From positions 1 to 34,621 of the forward strand of contig CAMOPX010000018.1 in NCBI GenBank assembly GCA_946622415.1: DNA of 34,621 nt. Reading direction: 5' to 3'. Numbering within the stretch: position 1 is the first letter of the stretch; each line of letters begins with the position of its first letter. Source of the stretch: an uncultured bacterium. GTDB lineage: Bacteria > Cyanobacteriota > Vampirovibrionia > Gastranaerophilales > Gastranaerophilaceae. Both the position numbers and the translations under genes were made by a program. Shown here in pieces: positions 3,652-34,619 of this stretch. The notes below the pieces were generated by a model. The model did not search any database, was not told where the DNA came from, and saw only the letters and a list, made by a program, of their open reading frames with translations.

Positions 3652-5398
3652 AGATATAAAAAATTTGTGGCAAAAACTCGACCTGAACCAGAAGTTTTCT
3701 ATTGCTGCGCTTTTAGTGGCAGTGGTTGTCGTAGGAGTATTTTTTATATTTAAAGCCACAGAACCGAATTGGACAGTATTATATTCGGATTTATCAAAGG
3801 AAGATGTTGCATCAATCTCGGAAAGCCTTAAAAAAAGCGGGTACGCATTTAAGGTTTCGGATGACAAAACAGCAATCTTGGTCAGAAATCAGGATAAAGA
3901 AAATTTAAAAATCTTTGTTGCGGAAAATGACCTCATAAAAGATACATCGGGTGGATTTGAGTTGTTGGATGATTTACAATTAGGTTCTACTGATTTTAAA
4001 AATAAATTAACAAAACAACGAATTTTCCAAGGTGAACTTACACGTTCAATTGAAAAAATACAAGGCGTTACAAAAGCCAGAGTTCAATTGGCAGAACCCG
4101 AACGTTCAATATTCTCGGATGAAGATGAAGAACCTTCAGCGAGCGTTGTTCTTATTTTGCAAGCCGGAGTTAAATTAAAAGCAAGCCAGATTTTAGCCAT
4201 AAAAAACCTTGTTGCATACGCAATTCCGAGATTAACAAACGACAGAGTATTTATAACAGACCAATTCGGAAATGTATTATCAGAAGATGTTTCAAAAAAT
4301 TCATCTGATATGCAATCATATAGAACAAACTTTGAAAAAGAAGCGGCAAAAAAGATTAAAGATACTTTAGAAACCATAATGGGAAAAGATAACGTCTCCG
4401 TTCAGGTTTCAACCGTAATGGATTTTAATCAAACCCGCTCTACAATAGAAAGCTATACTCCGACAAAAGGCTCTGAAACAGGAGTCATAATGACTCAACA
4501 GGGCGAAAAAGAAGTTTATTCAAAACCTCAAGACTTACCTTCGGCAAACGGTGACGTTGATAGCGCCGATTTAGCAAACAAACCCGAACCCACTCAAGCG
4601 CAAATATTAGCACAAAACCAAATGGATAATATTGCAGCCGAACAAAATCAAAATCCTAAATTAAATCAACAACAAGCAGGCTCAAGTGCTCAGGATGTTG
4701 TTGAACTTCCTTTGAACGAAACACCCGCAAAAACCGTAAATTATATGGGTACAAAAATGGGCGACAAGGATGATGATGTTCGCAAATTAAGCTATGAAAA
4801 AGAAAAACAAGCAACAACATACGCCATCACAAAAGAAGTAAAACAGGTGGTTTATGCACCGGGGTCTGTTGTGAGAATGAGTGTTGCTGTTGCCGTTAAT
4901 AAAATTTTAACCGAAAACGAAAAGAAGGAAATAGAAAATCTCGTTATGGCAGCAGCCGGTATGGACGCTGCAAGAGGTGATATGGTTAATGTTTCCAGTC
5001 TTAAATTTACGGGGATTGATACCGAAGAAGAACTCAAACAAGATAAGCTTGAACAAAAAGAATTCATTTTTGAAGTTTTGAGTTTCATATTTAAAAATAT
5101 AGCGCCTGTATTTATTGTTTTGCTTTTGGGCTTGCTTGCAATGCATAATTTTGGTAATGTATTTAAAGCACCAAAACCAAACGGCGACGGAAAAGAAGAA
5201 GGCGAAGAAGAAGCACAGTTACCAACATTCGACCCTTACTTAATGCTTCAACAAAACAATACAAATACGGATGATTTTTATAATCAGGATATGCAGTTTG
5301 CTTCGGCACTTGATAAGAAGAAAAATGATATAATAAATATGATTCTTGAAAATCCCGAAGAAGCAGGCAGAGTAATAACTTCATACTTGAAAGAGTAA
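3623..5398 (+). CDS. fliF: Flagellar MS-ring protein FliF
   Basis: Forms the inner-membrane MS ring that anchors the flagellar rotor and surrounds the export gate. As read here it has 591 residues, usual for FliF. A first membrane helix lies at about 25-43 (FSIAALLVAVVVVGVFFIF). The ring-building YscJ/FliF-type periplasmic domain follows, then a Gln/Asn-rich linker (about 300-370) and a second membrane helix near 485-512. The acidic C-terminal tail ends NPEEAGRVITSYLKE, typical of the FliG-binding end. The only in-frame start is GTG at 3623, preceded by a weak GGA. A much stronger ribosome site serves TTG 3589 in another frame, so the true N-terminus is uncertain. First gene of fliFGHI, 16 nt before fliG. 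Confidence 0.93.
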   Translation: MNEHVKLIIEDIKNLWQKLDLNQKFSIAALLVAVVVVGVFFIFKATEPNWTVLYSDLSKEDVASISESLKKSGYAFKVSDDKTAILVRNQDKENLKIFVAENDLIKDTSGGFELLDDLQLGSTDFKNKLTKQRIFQGELTRSIEKIQGVTKARVQLAEPERSIFSDEDEEPSASVVLILQAGVKLKASQILAIKNLVAYAIPRLTNDRVFITDQFGNVLSEDVSKNSSDMQSYRTNFEKEAAKKIKDTLETIMGKDNVSVQVSTVMDFNQTRSTIESYTPTKGSETGVIMTQQGEKEVYSKPQDLPSANGDVDSADLANKPEPTQAQILAQNQMDNIAAEQNQNPKLNQQQAGSSAQDVVELPLNETPAKTVNYMGTKMGDKDDDVRKLSYEKEKQATTYAITKEVKQVVYAPGSVVRMSVAVAVNKILTENEKKEIENLVMAAAGMDAARGDMVNVSSLKFTGIDTEEELKQDKLEQKEFIFEVLSFIFKNIAPVFIVLLLGLLAMHNFGNVFKAPKPNGDGKEEGEEEAQLPTFDPYLMLQQNNTNTDDFYNQDMQFASALDKKKNDIINMILENPEEAGRVITSYLKE

Positions 5399-17618: not shown

Positions 17619-18332
17619 ATGAGAAGAACAATTGATTTTAAAAGAAAACAGAAGGTTATCGTAGTTGACGATAAATATGAACACGCATCAGGAGTAAGAG
17701 AACTGGTAAATCTCGAAAATGATTACGAAGTTATTGCAAATGCAGGAAACGCTAATGTTGCAATTTCTTTAATCAAAAAATATCAACCGGATTTGGTTTT
17801 AATGGATATAAACATGCCTGAAATGGACGGTATAAACGCAATTGCAGAAATCCAAAAATTAAACCTTAAAACAAGAATCATAGTTTTAACCGCTTATGAT
17901 GATGCTGATTTGATTTATCGTGCAATGAAAGTCGGTGCTTGCGGTTATGTTTTAAAAACCATGGTTTCAGCTCAATTAATTAAAGCATTGGATGAAGTTT
18001 CAATGGGCAGAATTTATCTTCCGAATGTACTTTGTTCAAAATTCTTTGAATATTTCCAAGAATTTGAAAGAAACGGACAAAAAGCTATGGAAGATGATAA
18101 CGAAGAAAACTTGCTTCACTATTTAACAAACAGAGAAGAAGAAGTTCTTTCATTGTTATTAGAAGGTTCAACCTATAAAGATGTTGCAAGAGAATTGTTT
18201 ATATCAGAAACAACAGTAAAAACTCACGTAAACAATATCTTCCAAAAATTACAAGTTAAAGAAAAAACACAAGCTGTACTTTATGCAATTAATAAAGGGT
18301 TTAAACCCAAGAAAAAAGTTGGCGTAGCGTAA
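17619..18332 (+). CDS. NarL/FixJ-family response regulator
   Basis: Cytoplasmic two-component transcription factor of 237 residues. Receiver domain: acidic pair Asp17-Asp18, phospho-acceptor Asp63 in LVLMDINMPEMDG, Thr91 and Lys113. After a linker (about 135-165) comes a LuxR-type helix-turn-helix, LTNREEEVLSLLLEG...ISETTVKTHVNNIFQKL. GGAGGGG is an optimal Shine-Dalgarno. The cognate kinase is probably the next gene (18523-19731), and flgB-flgC-fliE follow, so control of flagellar genes is a reasonable inference. The stop codon TAA is also the first part of a structured repeat (18331 onward); the last few codons (GVA) lie just before it. Confidence 0.93.
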   Translation: MRRTIDFKRKQKVIVVDDKYEHASGVRELVNLENDYEVIANAGNANVAISLIKKYQPDLVLMDINMPEMDGINAIAEIQKLNLKTRIIVLTAYDDADLIYRAMKVGACGYVLKTMVSAQLIKALDEVSMGRIYLPNVLCSKFFEYFQEFERNGQKAMEDDNEENLLHYLTNREEEVLSLLLEGSTYKDVARELFISETTVKTHVNNIFQKLQVKEKTQAVLYAINKGFKPKKKVGVA

Positions 18333-18488
18333 CCCGAGCCAAACGAGCGAATTTAGTGCGCAAGCACTTAATGAGCGAAGTTGAGGGCATCGGGTGTGTG
18401 AAGCCCGAACGGGTTTGCGTTGAGCAAAGCCGACAGGGCGTAACCGTACCAATGCGACGTGGGACGAAGTCCCTCAGGAGCAAACCCG
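18331..18488 (+). repeat. Structured intercistronic repeat, unit A (152 nt plus the next unit's AACCCG)
   Basis: Begins AACCCGA on the regulator's stop codon and ends ...CAGGAGCAAACCCG. Parts in order: hairpin P1 AGTGC/GCACT with GCAA loop (18355-18368); conserved GAGGGCAT (18383-18390); hairpin P2 (18403-18439) with outer stem GCCC/GGGC, CGG/CCG, a G-G mismatch, inner stem TTTGC/GCAAA and loop GTTGA; conserved CGTACCAATGCGACGTGG (18445-18462); hairpin P3 GGGAC/GTCCC (18461-18473). A second unit start, AACCCG (18483-18488), follows. It is clearly more GC-rich than its surroundings. The same architecture with compensatory stem changes occurs at 20727-20877. Function unknown. Confidence 0.85.
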
Positions 18489-18522
18489 TACCAAACCGCC
18501 AACCACAAATATTGGTAAGTAA

Positions 18523-19731
18523 ATGAAAACAAAAAGCTTAAATCAATTTTTTAAAAACAATGAATTATTTAACAACCGTTCTTATTCAAAGACGGTTGTT
18601 AAATCATTAATTAGAAGCGTACTTGAGCCTATAACAACACAAAATTCAAAGGCTCTTGTTTATATGCGTCTAAAAAACATGGAAGGAATTGAAAGCTTAA
18701 TAAAAAGAATAGAATATTTGCCGGATGTAGCCTTAAATCAATTTGGGGATTTTGAATTTTCAAAATTTGATTCCGAAGAAGTCGGCTTCATTGTTTTAAC
18801 TTCTCAAAGATACAATTGCGCACTGTTATTTAAAGAAATTGAAGACAACAAATATGAAATATATTTAAAACTGAATTCAAAACTCGTATCCGATGTTTAT
18901 GAAACATTAAAAAGCATATTTTTAATTGATGACGATGAAGAATTTTATTCACATAAACCTGAACGCAGAGAAAATACGACTATGAATAACGCCGTTGAAA
19001 ATATATTAAAATATTTTGAAGATACAGTGGAAGAAAGCGAGTGTAATTTAAAAATCCAAGAAACTTATAAAAACGTAAATCTTGTTAATAAGGATTTAAG
19101 AAACGAAGTTTATCAAAACGTAAAAGCAATAGCACATGAAATAAAAAATCAATTAAGTATCTTGGATATATATACAAGAATATTTGAAAAAAAGACACAA
19201 ACACCTGAAATTGTTCAACCTATAAGAAAATCCGTAGAAGTTATTAAAAAACAACTTGAACAATTTAAAAACATTGATGTCGTAAACCTGTGCGAAAGAA
19301 ATGTTAAAGAAATAATACAAGAATCAATAAAAATGTATTCAAGCGTTTTAAAAGAAAAAAACAATAAGATTATCCTGATAGATGAAATGCCCGAACATGT
19401 TGCAAATGCATTTGTAGATGAGGATAAATTGTCTATTGTAATTAACAACGTAATTAAAAACGCAAATGATTCAACAAAAAATGATGAAATTTTAATAAAA
19501 TTGGCACAAGTGCAGGATAAAATTAAAATTTCTTTCATAAATCACGGACAAAAAATCAAACAACAAGACCAAGAAAAAATTTTCTCATCGGGTTATACTA
19601 CTAAAAAAGACGGATGGGGAGTTGGTCTTTCCGTTTGCAAAAAATTCATAGGCTCGCAATTCGGTTCGTTTGAACTTGAAAAGAGCGACAACAAAGAAAC
19701 AATTTTTTCTTTAAAATTGCCTCTGGCATAA
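18523..19731 (+). CDS. Soluble sensor histidine kinase
   Basis: 402 residues without membrane segments, so it senses a cytoplasmic signal. A weakly conserved N-terminal region (1-170) precedes a coiled coil and the dimerisation/phospho-acceptor helix AIAHEIKNQLSIL with His205. The ATPase domain has N-box VINNVIKNANDS, F-box IFSSGYTTK and G2 box GWGVGLSVCKKF. The G1 box is not canonical (NHGQKI where DxGxG is usual), so ATP binding may be altered, though such drift occurs in active kinases. It follows the response regulator across structured repeat A and precedes flgB by 20 nt. A cytoplasmic HEIKN-type kinase beside flagellar genes recalls FlrB/FleS, but the partner here is NarL-like rather than an NtrC-type sigma54 activator. 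Confidence 0.9.
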   Translation: MKTKSLNQFFKNNELFNNRSYSKTVVKSLIRSVLEPITTQNSKALVYMRLKNMEGIESLIKRIEYLPDVALNQFGDFEFSKFDSEEVGFIVLTSQRYNCALLFKEIEDNKYEIYLKLNSKLVSDVYETLKSIFLIDDDEEFYSHKPERRENTTMNNAVENILKYFEDTVEESECNLKIQETYKNVNLVNKDLRNEVYQNVKAIAHEIKNQLSILDIYTRIFEKKTQTPEIVQPIRKSVEVIKKQLEQFKNIDVVNLCERNVKEIIQESIKMYSSVLKEKNNKIILIDEMPEHVANAFVDEDKLSIVINNVIKNANDSTKNDEILIKLAQVQDKIKISFINHGQKIKQQDQEKIFSSGYTTKKDGWGVGLSVCKKFIGSQFGSFELEKSDNKETIFSLKLPLA

Positions 19732-19751
19732 AAACTAATAAGGATAGAATT

Positions 19752-20225
19752 ATGGATTTTATTAACAATAGGACAAAAGACATTACCGCAATGGCACTAG
19801 ACGGGCTATATGAACGCTCAAAAGCAATTTCTGCTAATACCGTTAACGCCTTGACTCCTGATTACAAAAGGAAAGAAGTAAATTTTGAAGCGAGCTTGAG
19901 AAATATTATTCAGCAAGAAAACGAAAAAGCGGAATTAAAAGCTCAAAATTCGGCATTTTATCAGGCACACCCTGATATGATTTTAAAAGGAAAAAGTCCT
20001 GCCGAGCTTGCACTTTTGAGTTCGAATTTCGATAAAGGTTTTGAGATTGAGGTTGAAACAGATATATCAGACCCTGTTGACAGCGAAGGCAACAACGTAT
20101 CAATCGAAAGAGAAATGATGGACGAAGCCAAAAACGGTATGCAATATATGGTTTTAACAAATCTGATGTCAAGACAGTACAGACAAATGAATTCAATAAT
20201 TTCAGGTCAAATAGGTAATTCATAG
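19752..20225 (+). CDS. flgB: Flagellar proximal rod protein FlgB
   Basis: Rod component exported through the flagellar type III apparatus to build the periplasmic drive shaft. It has 157 residues, slightly above the usual ~130-140. The N-terminal part (LDGLYERSKAISANTVNALTPDYKRKEVNFEASL) follows the FlgB pattern of a helix, then a SxNxAN-like turn, here modified to SANTVNALTP. The C-terminal helix ends with QYMVLTNLMSRQYRQMNSII, typical of rod proteins. A reasonable AAGGA precedes the ATG. It is 11 nt upstream of flgC. Confidence 0.93.
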   Translation: MDFINNRTKDITAMALDGLYERSKAISANTVNALTPDYKRKEVNFEASLRNIIQQENEKAELKAQNSAFYQAHPDMILKGKSPAELALLSSNFDKGFEIEVETDISDPVDSEGNNVSIEREMMDEAKNGMQYMVLTNLMSRQYRQMNSIISGQIGNS

Positions 20226-20236
20226 GGGGATAGAAA

Positions 20237-20728
20237 ATGAGTTTTAGTGTTTTTGATATTGCCGCAACAGGAATGGAAGCGCAAAGAATCAAAATGGATA
20301 CCGTTTCCTCTAATATAGCCAATGTGAATACAACAAGAAACGCAAAAGGCGAAAGAGCTGTTTACCACAAACAAGAGGTTACATTTAAAGAAATGGCTCT
20401 GAAAAAAGGTTTTACATTCCCAAAAGGAAACGCATTTGTAGATTTTGATCCGCCAAGTGAACCTATATTAAGAGGGGGTGTATATGACGGTAACGAAGAA
20501 ATAGCAAAAGGCGTTATGGTAAGTTCTATAACGGATGCGGACAATCCGACAAGAATCATCTATGATCCGAATCATCCGGATGCGGATTTAAACGGATATG
20601 TGGAATTACCAAATGTAAATGTGGTAGAAGAAATGGTCAATATGGTAAACGCTTCACGAGCTTATGAAGCAAATGTTTCTATAGCACAAACAACAAAAGC
20701 TATGATAAATAGCGCCATGAATATATAA
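20237..20728 (+). CDS. flgC: Flagellar proximal rod protein FlgC
   Basis: Proximal rod subunit, partner of FlgB. It has 163 residues. The rod/hook N-terminal signature DIAATGMEAQRIKMDTVSSNIANVNTT and the C-terminal NVNVVEEMVNMVNASRAYEANVS are textbook FlgC. AGGGGGATAG serves as the ribosome site. Its stop codon TAA (20726-20728) coincides with the start of the structured-repeat array (AACCCGA). The next flagellar gene, fliE, is therefore 485 nt away although all three normally work in one export step. Confidence 0.97.
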   Translation: MSFSVFDIAATGMEAQRIKMDTVSSNIANVNTTRNAKGERAVYHKQEVTFKEMALKKGFTFPKGNAFVDFDPPSEPILRGGVYDGNEEIAKGVMVSSITDADNPTRIIYDPNHPDADLNGYVELPNVNVVEEMVNMVNASRAYEANVSIAQTTKAMINSAMNI

Positions 20729-20877
20729 CCCGAATGAAGTGAGGCGTAGTGCACTGCACTAGCCGAACAAAATGAGGGCATCAGGTGTGCGAAGTGCGTA
20801 CGGGAAAGCGACGAGCTTTGCCGTTAGCACGAAGACCGTACCAATGCGACGTGGAAATTTTAATTTCCACAGGAGCA
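20727..20877 (+). repeat. Structured intercistronic repeat, unit B1 (151 nt)
   Basis: Same architecture as unit A. Start AACCCGAATGAAGTGAG on the flgC stop codon. P1 TAGTGC/GCACTA (20747-20761), extended by GGC/GCC. Conserved GAGGGCA (20774-20780). P2 20794-20830: outer GTGC/GCAC, CGG/CCG, G-G mismatch, inner AAAGC/GCTTT, loop GACGA. Then GAAGACC and CGTACCAATGCGACGTGG. P3 GTGGAAATT/AATTTCCAC (20851-20870). Then CAGGAGCAAACCCG, whose AACCCG opens the next unit. Relative to unit A, five P2 base pairs are changed on both sides so that pairing is kept. Confidence 0.85.
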
Positions 20878-20977
20878 AACCCGAATCAAGTGAGCGGATT
20901 TTGCGTAGGGTGAAGCGAAGCGAAATCCCGAAGTAACGAGGGCAATATGAAGCGATAACGAAGTGAAGCGAAATGCT
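20878..20977 (+). repeat. Structured repeat, truncated unit B2 (about 100 nt)
   Basis: Opens AACCCGAATCAAGTGAG, nearly identical to the first 17 nt of B1. A P1-position stem GGATTT/AAATCC (20896-20901 with 20923-20928) is followed by GAGGGCA (20938-20944). P2 and P3 are missing. Instead GGGCA (20940-20944) can pair with TGCCC (20978-20982). The internal sequence is dominated by GAAGCGAA/GAAGTGAAG copies. Confidence 0.65.
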
Positions 20978-21171
20978 TGCCCGAGTGAAGCAAAATACAA
21001 GACAGCTTTAGTTTGCGAAAGCAAACTTAGCGAACGCAGATGAGGGCAAAGCTGTGCGGAATAAACGTCAAAACATTGAGTTTTGACGTTTATGAAGACC
21101 TTAGATAACCGCCGTTGCGAAGTGAAGCGATAGCGAAACGAGCGAAGAAATCTTCGATTTCACAGGCGGAT
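20978..21171 (+). repeat. Structured repeat, unit B3 (about 194 nt, enlarged)
   Basis: Starts CCCGAGTGAAGC (20980), like the other units. P1 AGTTTGC/GCAAACT with GAAA loop (21010-21027) is enclosed by ACAGCTTT/AAAGCTGT (21002-21009 with 21048-21055). GAGGGCA is at 21042-21048. P2 is a 14-bp perfect stem (21061-21074 with 21080-21093) with loop ATTGA. GAAGACC follows exactly as in B1. P3 GAAATC/GATTTC (21147-21161) lies inside CCGCC/GGCGG. The unit ends CACAGG then AACC, again resembling a unit boundary. Confidence 0.75.
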
Positions 21172-30669: not shown

Positions 30670-31108
30670 CCGCTTTCTTTTTAAAAAGAAAGCGGAAAGA
30701 AAGAAAACCTCAACCTAATCTTCGTTTTTTATTTATTGTTACTTTTCGATTTTTTCTGCAAGTCTTGAACTCGGAAAAATATGTATTAAGTCATTGCTAA
30801 CGCAATTCATATTTTTCCTCAGACAAACAAGACTTGTTATATGAAAAAATCTCAAAAGACAATAAATAAAAACTCCGATATGGTTGAGTGTTTAATTCTA
30901 TCTAAAAATATTTTATTCCCACGCATTAACGTAGTGAATAAATTTGTTATGCAACGAAAATTTCGTTAAGAAATCGTGTTGTTTGAGAGGTTGAAAACCT
31001 CGAGTTCACGATTTCAGAAATTGAGTTGCAATAACAAAACGAACGGAGTGGAAGCTAAGGCGAGTTTCTTTTCCGTCACTTTTCTTTGCAGGTTCAAAGA
31101 AAAGTGAC
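30670..31108. repeat. Multi-hairpin, MITE-like intergenic element
   Basis: The 865-nt gap before the next gene holds no convincing ORF but has strong secondary structure. The left end is a loop-free 13-bp inverted repeat (CCGCTTTCTTTTT at 30670-30682 with its complement at 30683-30695) followed by a purine-rich flank. The right end is a 14-bp stem with 6-nt loop (GTCACTTTTCTTTG at about 31075-31088, complement 31095-31108). Read from the other strand, its inner flank GGAAAAGAAACTCGCCTTAGC resembles the left flank, so the ends are imperfect inverted repeats. The first 53 bp recur exactly at 34567-34619. No transposase is present. Confidence 0.6.
30944..31037. repeat. Nested stem-loop core of the intergenic element
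   Basis: TTGTTATGCAAC (30944-30955) pairs with 31025-31037 with one bulged A. It encloses AACGAAA/TTTCGTT (30953-30967, partly competing), a 9-bp stem GAAATCGTG/CACGATTTC (30970-30978 with 31007-31015) and an apical stem GAGGTT/AACCTC (30987-31001). This is a compact, several-level fold. Confidence 0.6.
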
Positions 31109-34566: not shown

Positions 34567-34619
34567 CCGCTTTCTTTTTAAAAAGAAAGCGGAAAGAAAG
34601 AAAACCTCAACCTAATCTT
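34567..34619. repeat. Second copy of the left end of the MITE-like element
   Basis: Identical over 53 bp to 30670-30722, including the 13-bp loop-free inverted repeat (34567-34592) and the purine-rich flank AAAGAAAGAAAACCTCAACC. It diverges at the last bases of the window, so whether a complete element follows cannot be seen. It lies 39 nt after the HD-GYP gene stop and may also act as its terminator. Confidence 0.75.

Follow-up and report, generated by a model that had tools for sequence, protein, structure and literature searches.

Comparison with known interspersed repeats

Short multicopy palindromes lying close behind genes, grouped and sometimes placed inside genes, are known as repetitive extragenic palindromic sequences and bacterial interspersed mosaic elements (REP/BIME); as described in excerpts of PMC3733652, which also name the Rickettsia palindromic elements, they use co-directional and convergent spacers and avoid divergent ones. 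We describe a repeat family resembling these in a 34,621-nt stretch of contig CAMOPX010000018.1 from an uncultured member of the Gastranaerophilaceae (the window), in which two units, A (18331–18488) and B1 (20727–20883), stand behind genes. An earlier note on this DNA had reported the two units at 18331–18482 and 20727–20877 as members of a new structured repeat family; inspection of the sequence found both units and the blocks common to them at these positions, the repeat proper being slightly longer. The arrays follow one plan, in which a gene-adjacent P1 hairpin, partly of local sequence, is followed by exchangeable P2 and P3 cassettes and often by P1 again. The family looks new in detail, akin to known bacterial interspersed repeats and spread behind genes in gut bacteria related to cyanobacteria.

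The position behind genes, with few divergent spacers used, is shared with REP/BIME. The family differs from them in its units of about 150 nt, which hold three different hairpins and a locus-specific outer stem and lie in direct order in the arrays examined. In a by-eye comparison with the REP/BIME foot described in excerpts of PMC3733652, a palindrome of 20–40 bp with an unpaired GTAG or CGTC end, P2 and P3 were found to be larger composite hairpins, and neither foot is a conserved feature here; CGTC-type REPs are said in the same excerpts to be without a dedicated transposase as well. The RAYT transposase associated with REP/BIME was missing from 27 of 28 genomes of the genus, so that on both counts the family does not qualify as REP/BIME. 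BOX elements of Streptococcus pneumoniae are built from fixed A, B and C modules. They too are structured interspersed repeats, likely to affect co-transcribed genes and read as parasitic in the excerpts of PMC3049150. The present family is set apart from them by description, in that P1 is locus-specific and the P2 and P3 types are exchanged.

Rickettsia palindromic elements are likewise palindromic insertions, some of them inside genes and translated, whereas the present copies are mostly intergenic with one clear in-frame case, an antisense copy in locus L289. Arrays of clustered regularly interspaced short palindromic repeats (CRISPR) show a similar alternation of like palindromic repeats with cassettes, but here Cas1 is absent from most genus genomes, the cassettes form one structured family and the length of P1 is variable. 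Template-switch hairpins, as set out in excerpts of PMC8794818, also present reverse-complement copies and multi-base compensatory changes; in the present family, unlike these, fixed mismatches survive inside changing stems. Open-access papers on palindromic or intergenic repeats in Gastranaerophilales or Melainabacteria, judged by title and opening of the abstract, included no description of this family, which does not imply absence from print.

We consider the family, with a probability of roughly 0.65, to be a mobile repeat that is mosaic and non-autonomous and behaves like REP and BOX elements. Orthologous sites may contain it or lack it, and it forms mosaic arrays, lies mostly behind genes and carries features confined to one strand, namely tandem G.A in P1 and a G-G mismatch and a GA-ending loop in P2. 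This mobility, the mosaic make-up, the partly local P1 and the use of both orientations go beyond the view taken in the earlier note. Arrays within operons are probably transcribed together with the genes around them, as structured spacers that are tolerated but not required. The family would give a poorly studied lineage close to the cyanobacteria a repeat system spanning a whole order.

Structure and covariation of P2

The layout described for P2 in units A and B1, with a 4-bp outer stem, CGG/CCG, a G-G mismatch, a 5-bp inner stem and a 5-nt loop, was recovered in both, together with the five double-sided base-pair changes that separate them (GCCC/GGGC to GTGC/GCAC and TTTGC/GCAAA to AAAGC/GCTTT). 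B1 resembles A with an E value of 2.7e-10 in a search within their own genome. RNA folding gave z scores of -4.47 for A and -5.31 for B1, with none of 200 shuffles equally good; for the complement of A the z score was -2.42 and 4 of 200 shuffles were equally good.

A covariance model of P2, R1, was built from an alignment of 50 of the 65 known P2 copies, among them those of A and B1, the 15 omitted copies being divergent types that include the third P2 of the window. R1 returned 145 matches in 100 sources, of which 118 were distinct. Across these 118 copies pairing reached 88.0% in helix 1, 98.7% in helix 2 and 98.5% in helix 3, and all four Watson–Crick pairs were seen at 4 of the 8 positions of helices 2 and 3. 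In the model-fitted alignment 94.1% of cells were paired, the covariation score was 0.529 (shuffles gave 0.148, and sliding the structure along the alignment never more than 0.109) and double-sided changes occupied 340 cells versus 92 in shuffles. The MAFFT alignment A1, which is independent of the model, gave 94.3% paired cells, a score of 0.481 and 129 double-sided cells versus 37. Such covariation is very clear for an interspersed repeat.

Conserved sequence is found in GTGTG..CGTAC, in the GA-ending loop and in GCGAC..CAGGAGC. Of 115 copies, 109 have an NNNGA loop; next to the inner stem, on its far side, 106 have a purine-purine mismatch, which in 74 is G-G, and the two halves of the tandem G.T/T.G of helix 1 are present in 89 and 101 of 112 copies. 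The G.A and G.G mismatches kept on one strand argue for a selected, strand-specific structure. Since they fit one strand only, they speak against a symmetric double-stranded cruciform, leaving RNA and single-stranded DNA as the candidates. G.U pairs make up 7 of 674 inner-stem pairs, a near absence that fits single-stranded DNA and template switching alike. Outside the conserved wobbles G.T outnumbers A.C by 21 to 7; because 17 of the 21 come from one loop-adjacent pair, this excess does not decide for an RNA signature. The covariation had been read in the earlier note as an argument for a selected RNA or single-stranded DNA structure: the one-strand mismatches support that part, whereas the scarcity of G.U and the dominance of double changes can arise from template switching as well.

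Distribution and presence at orthologous sites

Many further copies were returned by a covariance-model search of the window's genome and its relatives, a check that had been proposed for the two units. Within the genome itself, 19 places match unit A and at least 64 match the B region (parts of P1, P2, P3 and P4 taken together, with 40 of 53 candidates scored), probably an undercount because several matches sit at contig ends. A DNA search found the repeat in 20 of 24 genomes of the genus and in one of another family (21 of 39 overall), and R1, with up to 14 candidates scored per genome, in at least 25 of 27 genus genomes, 91 of 383 genomes of the order and 24 of 52 genera. Genome G009 gave no match by either route. 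When 386 genomes sampled from the phylum, including an unstated number from outside the order, were scanned at E up to 1e-5 with strict filters, all 40 matching genomes belonged to the order.

No riboswitch, ribozyme, intron or other known RNA family in Rfam matches the element. Nothing in the window reached the gathering level, and among eight element-bearing loci searched at E up to 5 the gathering score was reached by three tRNAs of L022 alone, nine other matches falling below it. The proposed new structured family is supported by its presence in relatives, by covariation that persists once the alignment is enlarged and by the lack of an Rfam match, and none of the outcomes named in the earlier note as refuting it was obtained; of the known repeat families REP was tested and the others were compared by description.

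The rpsH–rplF spacers of 27 genomes were classed by eye as filled in 11, empty in 14 (65–89 nt) and longer without recognisable units in 2; the copy of the window's own genome is cut there by a contig end. Two of the filled spacers, L158 and L177, are among four loci (with L184 and L307) whose P2 was missed by R1. At the 3' end of pgi, 3 of 26 genomes with a readable flank were filled, also by eye, a count that leaves out the second gene of genome G005 and one locus cut at a contig end. Between flgC and fliE, where B1 lies, all five relatives examined have a short spacer without the element. This absence from orthologous sites in relatives points to insertion rather than to a fixed part of the gene. 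At the site of unit A, L070 carries P2 on the strand opposite the genes (53.1 bits) and R1 found no P2 in L068, L069 or L071, so that a site is reusable and the orientation free.

The gene upstream is co-oriented with the array in 46 cases and opposed in 23, from 69 arrays with a call, and 3 of 50 spacers are divergent. Orientation was taken from simple longest-open-reading-frame calls, and 18 of 95 arrays falling inside called frames, some of them plainly spurious, were excluded.

P1 modules and mosaic arrays

Of 97 P1 copies, 39 have an outer stem that fits 3 bp–2 nt–3 bp exactly, with 23 different stems among them. The same form arose in 85 of 1921 pairings (4.4%) with an arm from another locus and in 5.1% with a shuffled arm. 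The test covered 97 of 119 P1 regions, and its script favours GA/GA where several readings fit; with this proviso, the middle of the stem is GA/GA in 21 of the 39 copies and TC/TC in none. In L006, L020, L023 and L053 the P1 stem is perfect.

At pgi the locus-specific stem tracks the neighbouring coding sequence, the outer P1 stem being the gene's own end: GCGATGAAC faces GTTCAGCGC in G017 and G006, and GCGCTAGCC faces GGCGAGCGC in G011. Differences in the last codons among these three species are mirrored in the inverted arm. Each of two cassettes in G011 is followed by another copy of the gene end, and in G017 that end is repeated partly or with changes.

Direct repeats flanking the cassettes, at a score of at least 40, were found in 20 of 34 cases in relatives versus 272 of 3734 control pairs, and in 21 of 39 in the window's genome versus 357 of 1412, the latter control rate being inflated because cassettes are shared. 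This test used 73 of 86 P2 matches, the other 13 having too little flank. By eye, 32 of the 41 high-scoring repeats are P1, whole or partial, and 9 are P3 or other sequence (L005 at 1709, L011, L018, L019, L021, L022 at 2502, L041 twice and L050). A second test, run at score 30 without a control, found a repeat in 51 of 117 units, and in 28 of the 117 the repeat extends as far as P2 and hence includes the end of P1. These units remained of the 145 A2 matches once duplicated loci, identical rows and any match that was short or had short flanks had been removed. The direct repeats vary in length and are absent from part of the units.

Modules are reassorted within single arrays, with P1 constant and P2 different in some and the reverse in others (for example L020, L041 and L233; L215 and L228). 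As a single number, P1 identity is uninformative, with a median of 0.59 within arrays and 0.65 between loci of the window's genome. The idea that right-hand P1 copies are truncated at the hairpin apex was dropped, 3 of 23 ending within 2 nt of it. A long run of repeat units in L022 (1661–3185) is interspersed among three tRNA genes.

Copies behind tmRNA genes, in phage-like contigs and inside a gene

At 12 loci suspected of carrying such genes, ARAGORN predicted a transfer-messenger RNA (tmRNA) in eight (L235, L245, L246 and L249–L253) and tRNA-Ala in L247, and no gene in L248, L266 or L039, the last from the window's own genome and with a short flank. The tmRNA ends 54 nt 5' of P2, at the start of P1, in L235, L245, L249, L251, L252 and L253, as does the tRNA in L247. 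After several of the single copies that lie behind a tmRNA or tRNA gene, the gene end recurs in imperfect form; the own-genome copy in L039 lies at 227–287.

In the phage-like loci L259, L263 and L270, P2 and P3 lie between genes and the terminal AGGAG stands shortly 5' of a start codon. L270 is a viral contig whose genes around the copy belong to the tail gene families Phage_GPD and Phage_base_V; it holds two copies, at 1300–1405 and 4117–4225, the second between tail genes and the first recognised by eye and pattern alone. Three degenerate patterns fetched 0, 1 and 29 viral contigs from IMG/VR, and among these 30 R1 matched two at E < 1e-7 and three more weakly (E 0.008–0.3). A fourth pattern returned L270 with a second match and L300, the latter judged from its sequence to be a chance match. 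One short blastn query each against the phage database INPHARED and against plasmid sequences gave no match, which is weak evidence of absence. In L289 (3843–3903) P2 lies antisense inside a C-5 cytosine DNA methylase gene with the reading frame intact. By eye, regions at about 1000–1250 of L307 and 880–1130 of L309, beside reverse transcriptase genes and near arrays, resemble what we take to be the template region of a diversity-generating retroelement.

Alternative explanations

The covariation could be mostly mutational if template switching rewrites one hairpin arm from the other, since complementarity would then arise without selection on RNA. The mechanism is known (excerpts of PMC8794818), the double changes are almost all Watson–Crick with very few G.U pairs and G.T exceeding A.C, and some P1 stems are perfect. 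Template switching would, however, remove mismatches, whereas the G-G mismatch and the GA-ending loop persist in changed stems, as do GA/GA in P1 and the tandem G.T/T.G of helix 1; these kept mismatches need selection or some other kind of constraint. We think that template switching may be responsible for part of the covariation and regard it as a main cause only tentatively, well below an even chance. The family offers a natural test case for whether stem covariation stems from structural selection or from templated mutation, a debated point, and a caution that strong covariation is by itself no proof of a functional host RNA. Somewhat less probable, and in our judgement unlikely, is a portable cis-acting RNA, that is, a structured intercistronic leader or 3' untranslated element, perhaps phage-derived, that tunes the translation or stability of its neighbours. 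Such an RNA would account for the strand-specific motifs, the excess of co-oriented upstream genes and the single copies directly behind tmRNA genes in several genera, and in the phage-like loci the gene that follows would take its ribosome-binding site from the 3' end of P3, CAGGAG; P3 ends in AGGAG shortly 5' of a start codon in L259, L263 and L270. Against it, close relatives differ in presence at rpsH–rplF and pgi, both orientations are found even at one site, AGGAG in the chromosomal arrays examined leads into P1 or other sequence and not into a start codon, and in the fold AGGAG lies opposite GCGAC where the P3 hairpin has its base.

Two further explanations have little to commend them. 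If the copies were ordinary terminators or attenuators for the genes that precede them, their position directly 3' of stop codons at several sites would be explained, but arrays occur within clusters expected to be read through (rpsH–rplF and flgC–fliE), relatives without arrays are found at both of these sites and no T run follows P3 in the units inspected by eye, so that this role is very improbable. Hardly credible at all is a process like CRISPR adaptation, in which P1 would be duplicated at each cassette insertion by a Cas1-type integrase: the arrays do run P1–cassette–P1 with similar P1 on either side, but P1 has no fixed length, the cassettes are one structured family rather than foreign sequence, and of 28 genus genomes three have Cas1 (PF01867) above the cut-off, or five at E ≤ 0.001, the window's genome not being one of them; this last result largely refutes the idea.

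Proposed mechanism and points against mobility

If the family is a non-autonomous mobile repeat, an enzyme supplied in trans would recognise the folded single strand, whether RNA or single-stranded DNA, copy the cassette and insert the copy behind a gene. Duplication of units and exchange of cassettes might then enlarge the arrays, and the outer stem of P1 would be built on local sequence and kept complementary to it.

Several results weigh against mobility of this kind. No enzyme able to mobilise the repeat was identified: besides Cas1, the search covered the Y1 transposase (PF01797, RAYT), found in one of the 28 genus genomes, and reverse transcriptase (PF00078), found in 12 of 28, and the window's genome, at 92% completeness, has neither. 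No new insertion between strains was seen in a sample of one genome per species. Direct repeats were not detected at score 30 in 66 of the 117 units, nor by eye in L177, L254, L256 and L270, and in G006 the pgi locus has a single P1 and no second copy of the gene end. The length of P1, about 24–62 nt, is unlike that of an ordinary target-site duplication, and GA/GA is also the commonest middle of the control stems (19 of 85), to be read with the script's preference for it. Further pair types in the 118 P2 copies did not exceed shuffles (28 versus 32.1). Part of the arrays can be put down to tandem duplication, with no transposition involved.

As a common engine, RAYT, reverse transcriptase and Cas1-type integration were all rejected on these counts. 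Membership of the retroelements, diversity-generating retroelements or group II introns was likewise rejected for lack of a reverse transcriptase in that genome, and membership of the CRISPR arrays for lack of Cas1.

A bolder version of the mobile repeat, which we hold to be doubtful, is a new kind of element that takes the sequence of its terminal stem from the target. On insertion, the adjoining gene end, from a few to about 20 bases, would be copied both directly and inverted, and the strand-specific tandem-G.A hairpin so formed would serve as the landing place for exchangeable cassettes, through an enzyme not yet known. The case at hand is pgi, where three species have an outer stem equal to the last codons and an inverted arm that follows the codon differences.

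Features of the window

The genome of the window comprises 1.88 Mb in 50 contigs at 92% completeness, the window contig being 34.6 kb; the window, taken together with 35 further stretches, has a G+C content of 33.5%. By Pfam, the window encodes the flagellar proteins FliF, a FliI-type ATPase, the rod protein FlgC and FliE, and presumably also FliG, FliH and FlgB. The nearest named relatives of FlgC are from metagenome-assembled genomes of Candidatus Gastranaerophilales at 78–79% identity. A response regulator and a histidine kinase, also by Pfam, flank unit A.

All modules lie on the forward strand and, except where a score is given, were delimited from the sequence. Unit A opens with a P1/T module (18331–18389), a hairpin that starts on the response regulator's stop codon and ends in GAGGGCA; T modules were compared with one another as well. 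The outer arms of this module are a weak point, as they are poorly complementary (best 5 of 9, not above controls), and in the minimum-energy fold of A the first arm pairs in part with bases reaching the start of P2. The P2 cassette (18392–18451), with a GTTGA loop and the G-G mismatch, is the top match of R1 at 75.8 bits. It is followed by the P3 cassette GCGACGTGG..CAGGAGCA (18454–18482), identical at 29 of 29 nt in three relatives (G006, G011 and G017), and by what may be the decayed beginning of a second P1 copy (18483–18497), a weak match of AACCCGTACCAAAC with AACCCGAGCCAAAC at score 18.

Unit B1 begins on the stop codon of flgC with its own P1/T module (20727–20781), missing in the five relatives, and continues with a P2 cassette with a GACGA loop (20783–20843; R1, 68.8 bits) and a P3 cassette of the AAATTTTAATTT stem type (20846–20877). 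A third unit spans 20878–21169 behind it. Its P1 (20878–21048) has the outer stem CCCGAATC/GATGAGGG, the 5' arm of which is interrupted by the P4 module GCGGATTTTGCG..GCAAAATACAAGACAGC (20894–21006), a separate interspersed palindrome identified by genome matches at query positions 165–279 and by solo copies, and recurring at other loci. The third P2 (21048–21106) has an ATTGA loop and was found by nhmmer (E 4.1e-6), not being among the R1 matches at E ≤ 0.001, and the third P3 (21109–21169) is of the CCGCC..GGCGG type, which by eye recurs elsewhere.

Solo P4-like palindromes in L026, L027, L021, L034 and L038 have both ends changed in match (GGATTTTG/CAAAATCC, GTATTTTG/CAAAATAC and GAATTTTG/CAAAATTC), which suggests a second structured family in the window's genome. 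Another palindromic repeat, consisting of CCGCTTTCTTTTTAAAAAGAAAGCGG plus a tail, is present in the window as two identical 53-nt copies at 30670–30722 and 34567–34619, and sequence resembling it also occurs in L034, L036 and L202.

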